From an uncultured Paracoccaceae bacterium (GTDB lineage: Bacteria > Pseudomonadota > Alphaproteobacteria > Rhodobacterales > Rhodobacteraceae): a DNA stretch of 64,000 nt. Below the pieces are notes generated by a model. That model searched no databases. It was given only the letters and a program-made list of their open reading frames with translations, and had not been told where the DNA came from. Positions 45,031 through 51,010 of the stretch are shown here, piece by piece (position 1 is the first letter of the stretch; every line of letters starts with the position of its first letter). Both the position numbers and the translations under genes were made by a program. The stretch covers positions 54,276 through 118,275 of the forward strand of contig CALFSV010000064.1 of the NCBI GenBank assembly GCA_937916485.1, read 5' to 3'.

Positions 45031-47433
<2,403 letters not shown>

Positions 47434-47459
47434 GTAAGGTGGGTCTTGACCCACCTTAC
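47434..47459. repeat. 26-bp palindromic repeat, copy 1 (after uvrD)
   Basis: Half-site GTAAGGTGGGTC followed by TTGACCCACCTTAC, one mismatch from a perfect palindrome. It abuts the uvrD stop codon. Other copies lie at 47491, 56223 and 62644. Confidence 0.9.
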
Positions 47460-47490
47460 GGAAAAACACCGCCCGGACGTCTTGTCGTCT

Positions 47491-47516
47491 GTAAAGTGGG
47501 TCATGACCCACCTTAC
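47491..47516. repeat. 26-bp palindromic repeat, copy 2 (end of lysE-type gene)
   Basis: GTAAAGTGGGTCA followed by TGACCCACCTTAC, one mismatch from the perfect form. The TAA stop codon of the LysE-type gene (47513-47515) lies inside the repeat. Copy 1 is only 31 bp away. Confidence 0.9.
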
Positions 47517-48109
47517 CCAAAAAGAATTGGCCAAAGCGTCAGCACCAGAAGGATCGCCATCGTCCAGTTGAACGCCGTCAGCCGGCCCGGATTGGTCAGC
47601 AGTCGCCGCAGCTGAGTGCCCATCCCTGCCCAGAGCGTGATCGACGGCAGGTTGGTCAAGGCAAAGACCCCGGCCACAAAGAGAGCACTATAAAGAACGC
47701 CGCCGTCGGGTCGGTAGGCGGTCACGGCTGTGACAGCCATGTACCAGGCCTTGGGGTTGACCCATTGAAAGGCCGCGGCTTGCAGAAAGGTAAAGGGCTG
47801 GCCCGCGACCTCCTTTTGGGAGGGCGGGGCGGCATTCGCGATCTTCCACGCAAGGTACAACAGGTACAGAACGCTCAGCACCTGCATGAGCTGTTGGGCA
47901 AGGGGGTAGGTCACGAACACCTGGCCGAGGCCCAGACCGACCATCGTCACCATGAAAGCATGGCCGATCGAGATGCCAAACATATGGGGCAGGGTCCGCC
48001 GCAGGCCAAAGTTCGCCCCTGATGCCAGCAGCATCAGGTTGTTGGGCCCCGGAGTGACCGAGGACACAAACGCAAAGCCTATCAGAGCAAGAAGAAGATC
48101 GAGTGTCAT
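47513..48109 (-). CDS. LysE/RhtB-family amino acid exporter
   Basis: A 198-aa inner membrane protein with about six hydrophobic helices. The LysE/RhtB signature is GFAFVSSVTPGPNNLMLLASGANFG at the N terminus, then QWVNPKAWYMAVTAV. These proteins export amino acids such as lysine, homoserine or threonine. I use the ATG at 48109; the longer open frame upstream runs into the small-RNA terminator. Its stop codon is supplied by a palindromic repeat. Confidence 0.92.
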   Translation of the reverse strand: MTLDLLLALIGFAFVSSVTPGPNNLMLLASGANFGLRRTLPHMFGISIGHAFMVTMVGLGLGQVFVTYPLAQQLMQVLSVLYLLYLAWKIANAAPPSQKEVAGQPFTFLQAAAFQWVNPKAWYMAVTAVTAYRPDGGVLYSALFVAGVFALTNLPSITLWAGMGTQLRRLLTNPGRLTAFNWTMAILLVLTLWPILFG

Positions 48110-48159
48110 GGCGGCATGATCTACGCCGCAAGTCGGGGCGCGCCAAGTCGCATAATAGC

Positions 48160-48200
48160 AAAAAAAACGACGACGCCCGGGAGGAGGTGGGCGCCGCCGT
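48160..48200 (-). terminator. Cuckoo-type hairpin 11, also a Rho-independent terminator
   Basis: In minus-strand RNA a 12-bp stem, ACGGCGGCGCCC with GGGCGUCGUCGU (two G-U pairs), closes the loop ACCUCCUCCC and is followed by a U run. It ends the array, and its loop shows the complete CCUCCUCCC motif. Confidence 0.9.
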
Positions 48201-48210
48201 TCCTTTTTTC

Positions 48211-48244
48211 GACCGCTCCCCAGGGAGGAGGTTGGAGACCGGTC
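48211..48244 (-). ncRNA. Cuckoo-type hairpin 10
   Basis: Stem GACCG/CGGTC plus CTCC/GGAG with a two-base bulge; the loop holds AACCTCCTCCCTGG. Confidence 0.82.
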
Positions 48245-48262
48245 TTCACAGCACATGATCGG

Positions 48263-48284
48263 GGTCTCTGGGAGGAGAAAGACC
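48263..48284 (-). ncRNA. Cuckoo-type hairpin 9 (short variant)
   Basis: Five-bp stem GGTCT/AGACC around TTCTCCTCCCAG; the shortest unit, with a reduced motif like hairpin 2. Confidence 0.72.
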
Positions 48285-48310
48285 GCTCATGTTTCCCGGC
48301 AATGACCCGT

Positions 48311-48336
48311 CCCCAGGGAGGAGGAGAGGGTTGGGG
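48311..48336 (-). ncRNA. Cuckoo-type hairpin 8
   Basis: Five-bp stem CCCCA/TGGGG around a 16-base loop ACCCTCTCCTCCTCCC; an alternative outer ACCC/GGGT pairing is possible. Confidence 0.75.
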
Positions 48337-48358
48337 CCCTGCCGGGCTGGTATTCCCA

Positions 48359-48393
48359 CAACGGTCCCCAGGGAGGAGGAGAGAGAACCGTTG
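48359..48393 (-). ncRNA. Cuckoo-type hairpin 7
   Basis: Seven-bp stem CAACGGT/ACCGTTG around a loop with CTCTCCTCCTCCCTGGGG. Confidence 0.87.
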
Positions 48394-48406
48394 CGTCTGT
48401 CACGAC

Positions 48407-48430
48407 CCACCCAGGGAGGAGGAAGGGCGG
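48407..48430 (-). ncRNA. Cuckoo-type hairpin 6
   Basis: In minus-strand RNA CCGCCC pairs with GGGUGG, including one G-U pair that would be A-C on the other strand; the loop is TTCCTCCTCCCT. Confidence 0.75.
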
Positions 48431-48450
48431 CCGCGATCTTGTGCGAGGCA

Positions 48451-48485
48451 GCGGCGGCATCAGGGAGGAGGAGAGATGCCGCCGC
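48451..48485 (-). ncRNA. Cuckoo-type hairpin 5
   Basis: Perfect 10-bp stem GCGGCGGCAT/ATGCCGCCGC around the same 15-base loop as hairpin 3. Confidence 0.9.
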
Positions 48486-48494
48486 GCCTTCGTA

Positions 48495-48526
48495 TCGGTC
48501 CCTCAGGGAGGAGGAGGAGAGACCGA
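48495..48526 (-). ncRNA. Cuckoo-type hairpin 4
   Basis: Stem TCGGTC/GACCGA around a 20-base loop with an extended CCTCCTCCTCCC run. Confidence 0.85.
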
Positions 48527-48545
48527 ATTCTTCTAACCTTGCAAA

Positions 48546-48580
48546 GCGGCGACATCAGGGAGGAGGAGAGATGTCGCCGC
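48546..48580 (-). ncRNA. Cuckoo-type hairpin 3
   Basis: Perfect 10-bp stem GCGGCGACAT/ATGTCGCCGC around the 15-base loop CTCTCCTCCTCCCTG. Confidence 0.9.
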
Positions 48581-48589
48581 CTTGTTGCT

Positions 48590-48619
48590 GGGAGCCTCAA
48601 TGGGAGGAGAAAGGCACCC
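48590..48619 (-). ncRNA. Cuckoo-type hairpin 2 (variant)
   Basis: Stem GCCT/AGGC extended by GGG/CCC after a one-base internal mismatch; the loop motif is reduced to TTCTCCTCCCAT. Confidence 0.7.
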
Positions 48620-48626
48620 TGCTATG

Positions 48627-48665
48627 TCCGACTGCGCCCCAGGGAGGAGGAAGGAGCACGTCGGA
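48627..48665 (-). ncRNA. Cuckoo-type hairpin 1
   Basis: Stem TCCGAC/GTCGGA with an inner TGC/GCA extension; the loop contains CCTTCCTCCTCCCTGGGG on the minus strand. First after the DUF1127 stop codon. Confidence 0.85.
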
Positions 48666-48671
48666 AACTAA

Positions 48672-48890
48672 CTATTTCGCTCCGTTCGCTGCGTTGCGTG
48701 CAATCTCACCGATCTCGGTGCGGTGGATCCCCAGATCCGCCAGGTCACGGTCGCTCAGGCAGGAGAGTTCCGATACGGTTGTCCGGAACACCTGGTACTT
48801 CGTATAGCGGTCGGCCATTGCGGCCCGGACCATCGAGAAGCGCTCACCCAAAGTAGCAGTGAGGCTGCGTGTGTCTGTTGCAAATGCCAT
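48672..48890 (-). CDS. ccaF1: Small DUF1127 protein, CcaF1-like
   Basis: A 72-aa protein ending in the DUF1127 pattern TTVSELSCLSDRDLADLGIHRTEIGEIARNAANG. In Rhodobacter sphaeroides the DUF1127 protein CcaF1 binds RNA and helps mature the CcsR RNAs encoded behind it in the same transcript; the gene order here is identical. I start at the ATG at 48890 (MAFATDTRSL); an ATG three codons upstream at 48899 is equally usable. The first hairpin of the array begins seven bases after the stop codon. The stress-sigma promoter expected from R. sphaeroides was not identified. Confidence 0.92.
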   Translation of the reverse strand: MAFATDTRSLTATLGERFSMVRAAMADRYTKYQVFRTTVSELSCLSDRDLADLGIHRTEIGEIARNAANGAK

Positions 48891-49207
48891 TGCGTGCATC
48901 CAATCTTCTGATACGCGATCCCAACTGGACCGCCAATTTTTGTTCCCAGCCCTTAGCGGACCGAACTGCTCACACACCACCGTGTGCTGTTGGTAGTCAA
49001 ATTAGGCTAATGCTGCGGATGCACAATGGGGCGAAACGGCAATGCTGCTATGCAGCAATTGCATAAGTGTTTATGACCTAGTTTCGGGCGCTTCGACTGT
49101 TCTTTAGGCGCTAACAGAACGATGGGTTGCGCTTTTCGCCACAGATCGCGACTTTGCCGCTGACTCGGGCAATCTGCGGACCCGCGAGTGTAACAGGAGC
49201 AACACAT
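48891..49207. other. Divergent intergenic region between the ccaF1-like gene and mrp
   Basis: This 317-bp stretch is AT-richer than its surroundings and must hold promoters for both directions. It contains an inverted repeat, CACACCACCGTGTG, near 48972 and an ATGCTGCTATGCAGCAATTGCAT stretch near 49042. I could not identify a convincing sigma-70, RpoH or ECF promoter. Confidence 0.5.
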
Positions 49208-50314: not shown

Positions 50315-50445
50315 CGGGATCGCCCTGCGGGCGTTCCAACGGGATTTCATGGGAACGGTGATGCAGCCCCGGTTCCAATGGAACGGAACCGGGGCGGCCT
50401 GACCTGAGATTCTGAAGCAAACTGGTGAAAAAGGCCGAGTCAGGC

Positions 50446-50503
50446 TGGGATTTTGCCGGGAAAACCTGGGACTGGATCGGGTCCGCGCTGGGATTGCCTG
50501 GGT
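50446..50503 (+). promoter_or_regulatory. Six helically phased GGG boxes upstream of the dcw cluster
   Basis: Six short boxes (TGGGA, CGGGA, TGGGA, CGGGT, TGGGA, TGGGT) start 11, 10, 11, 11 and 10 bp apart. TGGG-type boxes at about 10-bp spacing are the known binding pattern of MraZ. The block lies about 510-565 bp before mraZ, further than usual. Function is inferred. Confidence 0.55.
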
Positions 50504-50698
50504 TTTGGGGGCTCGGACTGCTTAGCGCCGCTAGGAGGACTTAGCGATTTTCAGCAGGACCGCGGGGCGACCTCTGGGGTCTTCCCCCCAAAAAATACTA
50601 CATATTGATCGAAATTGTCTAATAATCACCATCTGGTGCGTCAAGCGTTGAGTTTCGCAGTGGGAATTTCTGGTCAAATACCGTGGCAAACCGGCACT

Positions 50699-50733
50699 TC
50701 CCATAAATTCCCGTTGCGACCCAGCATTTCCCA
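50699..50733 (-). promoter_or_regulatory. MraZ-type operator: four boxes at exact 10-bp spacing
   Basis: Read on the minus strand, TGGGA, TGGGT, CGGGA and TGGGA start exactly 10 bp apart, matching the TGGGN-N5 repeats bound by MraZ. A single TGGGA in the other orientation lies at 50661. The block overlaps the candidate promoter of the mraZ leader, as expected for autoregulation. Confidence 0.75.
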
Positions 50734-50743
50734 TGTCAGTAAT
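50714..50743 (+). promoter_or_regulatory. Candidate sigma-70 promoter of the dcw leader
   Basis: TTGCGA at 50714-50719 and AGTAAT at 50738-50743 are separated by 18 bp, predicting a start near 50750. That gives an RNA of about 200 nt to the terminator at 50921-50959, close to the known size of UpsM. Confidence 0.5.
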
Positions 50744-50749
50744 TGGTTC

Positions 50750-50959
50750 AAGGAAAGTCGGGTCGACACTCAAGGGGCAACAAAAAAAGAACCCCACGGT
50801 AGACGAGGCAGTTTCATACAGGCAGCCCTTCTTTTCTTACAACGAGATCCGGCGCGCGAGCAAGCAGACATCCCCCCAGGTGGCGCGCGCAGTCGGACAT
50901 CCCGGAAACGGGAAGATGGCGGCGGATCAAGCAGTGGCAGCAGCTTGATCCGCCGTTTT
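50750..50959 (+). ncRNA. UpsM-like leader sRNA upstream of mraZ
   Basis: In Rhodobacter sphaeroides the dcw cluster is preceded by a long leader from which the abundant sRNA UpsM (about 200 nt) is released by partial termination. Here a perfect terminator ends about 50 nt before mraZ, a candidate promoter lies about 200 bp upstream of it, and no credible protein is encoded in between. The 5' end is an estimate. Confidence 0.7.
50921..50959 (+). terminator. Terminator/attenuator in the mraZ leader
   Basis: A perfect 12-bp stem, GGCGGATCAAGC and GCTTGATCCGCC, with a 10-base loop is followed by GTTTTA. It sits inside the presumed dcw transcript, so it must be read through part of the time. Confidence 0.85.
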
Positions 50960-51010
50960 AACATCTAGGTTTACACAACTTGGCGGGGGTCGGAAAGGTT
51001 TTCGGAGCCC

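Follow-up and report, generated by a model that had tools for sequence, protein, structure and literature searches.

The stretch of DNA analysed here, referred to as the window, comprises 64,000 nucleotides from an uncultured Paracoccaceae bacterium. On its minus strand, a gene for a DUF1127 protein (48672–48890) is situated immediately ahead of an array of hairpins (48160–48665), and a tandem dyad, absent from the first-pass annotation, lies upstream of the gene (49007–49064, also minus strand). The gene comprises 72 codons from an ATG that is conserved in relatives, the start having been assigned by comparison, and its product matched PF06568 with an E value of 6e-10, as scored on a slightly longer frame. 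The presence of a CcaF1-like DUF1127 gene ahead of the array and on the same strand, as claimed in the first-pass annotation, is thus confirmed. The range given there for the hairpins, 48160–48890, is correct for 48160–48665 only, and the remainder is the DUF1127 gene.

The array contains eleven hairpins, each with CTCCTCCC in its loop. The first bases of these motifs, on the minus strand, are at 48649, 48609, 48565, 48513, 48470, 48421, 48378, 48323, 48277, 48230 and 48186, and the hairpins succeed one another at spacings of 40, 44, 52, 43, 49, 43, 55, 46, 47 and 44 bases. The motif is embedded in an exact CCTCCTCCC at nine of the eleven positions and in TCTCCTCCC at the other two. At the 3′-end, hairpin 11 is followed by a run of eight T residues (48160–48207, minus strand), and from sequence and predicted fold this is the putative terminator of a ccaF1-CcsR operon. 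A T-rich tail after the final hairpin is present in part of the relatives.

Elsewhere in the 64 kb, only mismatched copies of the 9-mer are present. Counted with up to one mismatch over the whole window, it was found 27 times, against 32 expected, a figure reached by 81 of 100 shuffles, so that there is no excess. The non-random features of the array are its clustering (eleven copies in 500 bases) and the pairing of its stems, and not the bare motif count. The motif was unpaired in the predicted folds of all eleven hairpins, and ten of them surpassed in stability no fewer than 292 of 300 counterparts whose flanks had been shuffled; the stability of hairpin 6 was not clearly above that of its shuffled flanks, 25 of 300 of which reached it.

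Stem pairing was assessed without an alignment, by pairing every 5′-arm in turn with each of the eleven 3′-arms. The mean energy for a hairpin's own arms was -19.6 kcal/mol, as compared with -10.0 kcal/mol for arms from different hairpins; the own arm was the best partner for 9 of the 11, and the mean was reached by none of 5000 permutations. When this swap test was applied to eight arrays, seven gave 0 of 5000 and the remaining one gave 1 of 5000, with a weaker preference for the own arm in two relatives (9 of 17 hairpins in L004 and 6 of 11 in L036). It is apparent, then, that the two structural claims made at first pass, of eleven minus-strand hairpins with a common loop motif and of stems that differ in sequence yet remain paired, are borne out by the motif positions and folds and by the swap test, respectively. 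In a logo of the loops, the invariance of seven positions is uninformative because the hairpins were selected by [CT]TCCTCC; only the neighbouring positions carry information, and these were C in 91% of cases at position -1 and in 98% at position +7. The loops had been described as anti-Shine-Dalgarno-like, and that reading is correct. RNAalifold, applied to the hairpins of 53 relatives, gave no consensus pairs. A covariance model of our own (R1) was dropped: MAFFT misregistered the hairpins, RNAalifold supplied no pairs, and the model was one of sequence only.

A search of the window against Rfam at gathering cut-offs returned no match to a CcsR/cuckoo array. In a permissive search, four matches to RF02791 (CcsR1) were obtained, with E values of 4.1e-11, 9.1e-8, 1.2e-6 and 4e-6, the best of them scoring 50.3 bits against a gathering score of 65.3 bits, which was not reached in the window. 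RF02344 (ar14) gave three matches below its curated cut-off, the best at 48163–48296 with an E value of 1.9e-8. Since the scores stay below the gathering cut-off of RF02791, the array is filed, on the strength of these models, under the broader cuckoo/CcsR kind and not under RF02791 as curated. Six relatives were also scanned, and both CcsR1 and ar14 were matched in five of them; for the sixth, which has the longest array (L085), one ar14 match and no CcsR1 match was listed. In a relative with eight hairpins (L023), exactly four CcsR1 matches were found, one of which, at 86.7 bits, exceeds 65.3 bits, while its neighbours scored 47.0–56.7; the ar14 cut-off was exceeded in L012 and L036. The cuckoo/CcsR-type identity proposed in the first-pass annotation is therefore upheld by the RF02791 and ar14 matches, and the covariance-model check named there gave significant RF02791 matches (E values from 4e-11 to 4e-6), though below the gathering score.

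Each of the CcsR1 matches in the window covers one pair of hairpins, namely 2–3, 4–5, 6–7 and 10–11, and the pairs were identical in a close relative (L001). All on the minus strand, the predicted units are unit A, hairpins 2 and 3 (48541–48625; 39.0 bits, E 9.1e-8, and fold); unit B, hairpins 4 and 5 (48446–48537; 50.3 bits, E 4.1e-11); unit C, hairpins 6 and 7 (48353–48438; 33.4 bits, E 4e-6); a putative unit D, hairpins 8 and 9 (48253–48345), drawn from fold and spacing with no RF02791 match listed; and unit E, hairpins 10 and 11 (48162–48249; 35.2 bits, E 1.2e-6), to which the ar14 match at 48163–48296 also applies. Hairpin 1 (48627–48665), placed by its fold, lies inside an ar14 match and in no CcsR1 match. 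Apart from hairpin 1, the window would accordingly hold about five CcsR-like units, which makes some 5.5 in all. Section 2.7 of PMC3927594 describes the Rhodobacter sphaeroides RNA RSs0680a as two stem loops. As a CcsR RNA consists of two hairpins, CcsR1–4 together amount to about eight. The statement made at first pass that the array is nearly three times larger than that of R. sphaeroides is wrong because hairpins were compared with units: eleven hairpins, or about 5.5 units, stand against four units of about eight hairpins.

Additional data bear on the pairing of hairpins. A strict alternation of long and short spacings was observed in 14 of 25 arrays with at least five hairpins and in seven of eight steps in the window, but this alternation is weak on its own, since chance gives about two thirds. 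Longer linkers between hairpin pairs were found in many relatives. The sequence CGG[CT]G[AG] was present in the 5′-arm of 70 of 113 second hairpins of close pairs, as compared with 14 of 113 first hairpins, in a count in which one hairpin may be scored on both sides.

The array thus shares with CcsR1–4 of R. sphaeroides (RF02791) a DUF1127 gene directly before it, two-hairpin units, CCUCCUCCC loops and a terminator-like end; it differs in having about 5.5 units instead of four and in scoring below the gathering cut-off. For the cuckoo family, two to four adjacent hairpins were reportedly described by Reinkensmeier and Giegerich in 2015. With that family (SmelA075/SmelA099 and Rhizobiales relatives, the CIN1 locus, RF02344 ar14 and RF02342 ar7) the array has in common CCUCCUCCC hairpin modules in variable number. 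PMC3927594 likewise gives two to four hairpins per RNA, with Rhizobiales relatives having three and four CCUCCUCCC hairpins (section 2.7), whereas eleven stand in one row in the window.

Relatives of the locus were collected via the DUF1127 protein, which yielded 41 loci. Among these, eleven hairpins were counted in each of L001 and L036, ten in L012 and 17 in Wenxinia marina (L004); eight loci had none and two had one. The first-pass annotation had pointed to copy numbers in related genomes as a check. The copies have now been counted, and range from two to at least 25 hairpins, so that the eleven of the window are not unusual: the array is on the long side without being exceptional. In 161 of 198 genomes of the same family the motif formed at least one adjacent pair, and in 8 of 198 there were ten or more pairs on one strand; counts of one or two pairs are not all real, because the reversed control pattern also matches some genomes. 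The longest array (L085, in genome G170) has at least 25 copies of the motif within 1500 bases behind one promoter element, with 25 of 25 folding, and is built of repeated three-hairpin blocks. In W. marina (L004:4267–5040), the last nine or ten of the 17 hairpins likewise repeat in three-hairpin blocks with equal spacings, which suggests growth by block duplication. At four loci (L015, L026, L039 and L041, two of them from Planktomarina), Mrp is kept beside the DUF1127 gene and there are no hairpins or one, an apparent loss of the array.

The eleven-hairpin relative L001, a Flavimaricola metagenome assembly, is approximately 94% identical in DNA sequence, and its hairpins have the same spacings as those of the window. 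Identity was 97.3% in the array, as compared with 91.5% in the DUF1127 gene, 92.3% in the region upstream of it, and 91.7, 94.7 and 95.3% in the neighbouring genes for Mrp, UvrD and LysE, respectively. None of 88 loop-core bases had changed, where about three changes would be expected at the array's own rate. There were 11 changes in predicted stems, of which five (in hairpins 3, 4, 7 and 11) keep a standard pair; the remaining six break a pair, and all are in hairpins 1 and 8.

The tandem dyad upstream of the DUF1127 gene consists of dyad 1, ATGCAATTGCTGCATAGCAGCATTG (49064–49040, minus strand), in which a VtlR/LsrB-like box, TGCATAGCAGCATTG, occupies 49040–49054, and dyad 2, ATTGTGCATCCGCAGCATTAG (49027–49007, minus strand), which holds the presumed -35 sequence TTGTGC (49021–49026). 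The dyads are 32 bases apart, measured from GCAGCA to GCAGCA; a separation of about three helical turns between two sites is typical of LysR regulators. Sixteen bases after TTGTGC is TAATTT (48999–49004, minus strand), a putative -10/-12 element, which occupies the place of a less conserved YATNTT in relatives. Read as TTGTGC, 16 bases and TAATTT, the presumed promoter has a degenerate -12 region; a figure legend of PMC10673084 gives TTG (-35) and TAT (-12) for RpoHI/RpoHII promoters. The invariance of TTGTGC across the aligned loci is by selection, the rows having been picked by that sequence.

The dyads were then counted with the spacing between them left free. The core of dyad 1, CTGCATRGCAGCATTG, was found with up to one mismatch at 24 of 32 loci with at least two hairpins, at 2 of the 10 others and in 0 of 420 shuffled sequences; for dyad 2, TTGTGCANCTGCAGCAT, with up to two mismatches, the figures were 30 of 32, 3 of 10 and 0 of 420. 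The strict joint pattern of both dyads was present in 96 of 198 genomes of the family, in 93 of them as a single copy, and its reversed control gave zero. Thirty loci were retrieved by the upstream element alone, regardless of array or gene. At 29 of these, at least two folding copies of the motif were present (the thirtieth had one), and at 29 a DUF1127 gene was found by tblastn.

The VtlR motif is presented in an excerpt of PMC12595884 as CAATGCAGCCATGCA; dyad 1 of the window is identical to it at 13 of 15 positions, the motif coming from Rhizobiales and not from the order of the host. The dyad 1 box is the sole match in the 64-kb window at up to three mismatches. In 42 upstream regions, which are related and so not independent, the best site matched the motif at 13 or 14 of 15 positions in 24 and at 12 or more in 34, while none of 420 shuffled regions reached 13 and 7 of 420 reached 12. 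The published core, GCAT-N3-TG-N3-T, is missed by one base in the window (GCAT-AGC-AG-CAT-T), and the element is for that reason called VtlR-like, and not a VtlR box. With TTGTGC as the -35 sequence, the coordinates of the box are about -63 to -49; a passage in PMC8844928 places the LsrB box of the Sinorhizobium meliloti abcR1 promoter (PabcR1) at -61 to -49. Parts of the same two papers (PMC12595884 and PMC8844928) describe control of AbcR RNAs by VtlR/LsrB in Rhizobiales, and the former lists DUF1127 genes as VtlR targets in Brucella; according to a passage in PMC11975290, LsrB is found in Rhizobiales only. The likeness to the VtlR/LsrB-controlled AbcR and DUF1127 genes of Rhizobiales therefore consists in a box identical at 13 to 14 of 15 positions and in a matching distance from the presumed -35 sequence, and the differences are the core, one base off, and the host, a member of the Rhodobacteraceae.

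Other searches relating to this element were negative or uninformative. In the neighbourhoods of trxB, an Lrp gene was present and no LysR gene was noticed among the frames listed. A search for ar15 (AbcR) gave zero matches, controls included, and is hence uninformative. Among the 12 papers listed, no link between CcaF1 and LsrB was found; of these, only PMC12501420 mentions both, and LsrB occurs in it once, in the reference list.

An upstream element resembling the switch of another bacterial order may be what is new at this locus, as judged from sequence. Somewhat short of an even chance is our estimate for the fuller proposal that a LysR regulator of the VtlR/LsrB type has, across the Rhodobacteraceae, the CcaF1-CcsR array operon as its main and nearly its only target. 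The Rhizobiales circuit, where sRNAs and DUF1127 proteins are turned on by one LysR regulator, would in that case extend to another order, its sRNA part having grown there to arrays of up to 25 hairpins or more. If the element is bound by a LysR protein, a stress operon credited to RpoHI/RpoHII in parts of the literature would have an extra upstream regulator, and a shared alphaproteobacterial circuit would become directly testable.

Taken together, the data make it highly probable that the locus is a CcaF1-CcsR (cuckoo) operon, of that family and with that processing, in a Rhodobacteraceae bacterium close to the Flavimaricola assembly, although each inferred step is held less firmly than the whole. 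The DNA itself shows the hairpins and their grouping into units, the match to the family, the order of the genes and the conservation of the upstream element. Passages in four papers on R. sphaeroides (PMC10253847, PMC8625941, PMC8307010 and PMC7866481) describe the co-transcription of ccaF1 with CcsR1–4 from an RpoHI/RpoHII promoter, the processing of the precursor into CcsR1–4 by RNase E and CcaF1, the binding of RNA by CcaF1 with an effect on CcsR maturation, the Hfq dependence of the CcsR RNAs, and flhR as a target. Co-transcription, the RpoHI/RpoHII promoter, RNase E/CcaF1 processing, Hfq dependence and the flhR target are carried over by analogy to the window and would be expected to apply here. 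From a single stress promoter, preceded by a site that a LysR-type protein would presumably bind, the DUF1127 gene would then be transcribed together with a 3′ UTR of eleven hairpins, the transcript ending at the last of them. RNase E, with the DUF1127 protein, would cut this precursor between two-hairpin units, to give about five CcsR-like RNAs and one single hairpin, whose unpaired CCUCCUCCC loops could pair with purine-rich ribosome-binding sites and so lower the translation or stability of target mRNAs. The original observation is confirmed, and the array itself extends the described family.

A different function for the same loops must be weighed, in which the array acts as one anti-Shine-Dalgarno comb, its many like loops sequestering ribosome-binding sites in bulk and its copy number setting the dosage. 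Loops that are alike on variable stems, and the range of two to at least 25 copies in relatives, are consistent with such a comb. It is nonetheless rather unlikely: the precursor is cut into CcsR1–4 in R. sphaeroides, according to the passages cited above, the copy number is equal in the window and L001, and an arm motif is kept in the second hairpins of pairs, which dosage alone does not require. With a single conserved promoter element ahead of arrays of two to at least 25 hairpins, the relatives offer a natural series that could serve to set anti-Shine-Dalgarno dosage against separate targets.

It is improbable that the hairpins serve instead to bind a protein (the DUF1127 protein or Hfq), as a decoy or an autoregulatory 3′ UTR. 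The RNA binding by CcaF1, its effect on CcsR maturation and the Hfq dependence described in those excerpts, together with the DUF1127 gene at 29 of 30 element-retrieved loci, would fit such a role, but the three-hairpin relatives in viral contigs mostly occur without a nearby DUF1127 gene (found for 2 of 55 by tblastn).

Equally little weight is given to the array as an AbcR-like uptake regulator, for which GGGAGGAG, the perfect complement of the loop core, would mark a regulon of periplasmic solute-binding proteins. The target set comprised ORFs at Shine-Dalgarno distance behind GGGAGGAG in the array-bearing genomes G001, G003, G005, G006 and G007, with G002, G004 and G008 left out. The hits used were 16 of 18 (G001), 20 of 22 (G005), 28 of 35 (G007), 14 of 24 (G003) and 18 of 36 (G006, where the remaining 18 appear to be a single repeat in multiple copies); 11 of the resulting 96 stretches had no ORF of 60 aa, which left 85 ORFs. 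Among the Pfam families in these were SBP_bac_1 (8), DctP (6) and Peripla_BP_6 (3), in support of the uptake role. A control with AAAGGAGG in the same five genomes (81 hits, from which 80 stretches were taken, 23 of them lacking an ORF of 60 aa) gave 57 ORFs, with no solute-binding family among the 25 matches listed of 76, which also favours it. A second control, of 12 family genomes without the array pattern (80 of 296 hits, 25 without an ORF of 60 aa), gave 55 ORFs, and here solute-binding proteins numbered, by reading, about 12 of 55, as against about 21 of 85 in the array-bearing genomes. The GGGAGGAG preference is thus a property of solute-binding protein genes and not of the array. As the preference is independent of the array, with GGGAGGAG preceding solute-binding genes in array-less genomes too, the Shine-Dalgarno match was rejected and withdrawn as evidence of targets. 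It was observed separately that GGGAGGAG often stands ahead of periplasmic solute-binding protein genes, in 5 array-bearing and 12 array-less genomes, and that AAAGGAGG seemingly does not.

Virtually no credence can be given to a repeat that is coding or of low complexity (proline-rich), or to a CRISPR-like array: CCTCCTCCC can encode prolines and a plus-strand frame of 246 aa (48116–48856) is open across the whole array, but that frame looks like a composition artefact, and the spacings are unequal and mostly not multiples of three. Moreover, pairing takes place inside individual hairpins, it is the loop that stays constant, and sRNA families are matched by the units.

The viral relatives mentioned above are three-hairpin cuckoo RNAs inside IMG/VR contigs (L378–L432). 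The ar14 cut-off was passed by 16 of 20 tested, and 40 of the 55 adjoin a helicase of two diverged types, with a match to a phage family where tested. Four of the viral contigs were scanned, and exonuclease, primase, sliding clamp or integrase genes were found nearby. TGCAT dyads occurred in several of 12 viral upstream regions; the VtlR motif was matched in those 12 at 7–11 of 15 positions, no better than chance. INPHARED gave zero matches to the window array or to one viral-contig RNA, and 'alphar14' and 'prophage' were found together in none of the papers listed.

The surroundings of the locus were also recorded. Relatives share the gene order: over the 41 loci, some of which are too short to contain all neighbours, Mrp was matched at 34, mraZ at 26, UvrD at 26 and LysE at 10. 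Plasmid records matching the query numbered 114, and among the 20 listed, only the Mrp part of the query was aligned. Two palindromes of the GGTGGGTCA-GACCCACC type lie at 47430–47520, between the end of the LysE gene and that of the UvrD gene. Approximately 700 bases (50315–51010) precede mraZ, with a terminator-like hairpin and four T residues at about 50918–50959; this place corresponds to that from which the sRNA UpsM is made, in the R. sphaeroides mraZ leader. A glycine riboswitch (51.8 bits) is present on the minus strand at 840–950.
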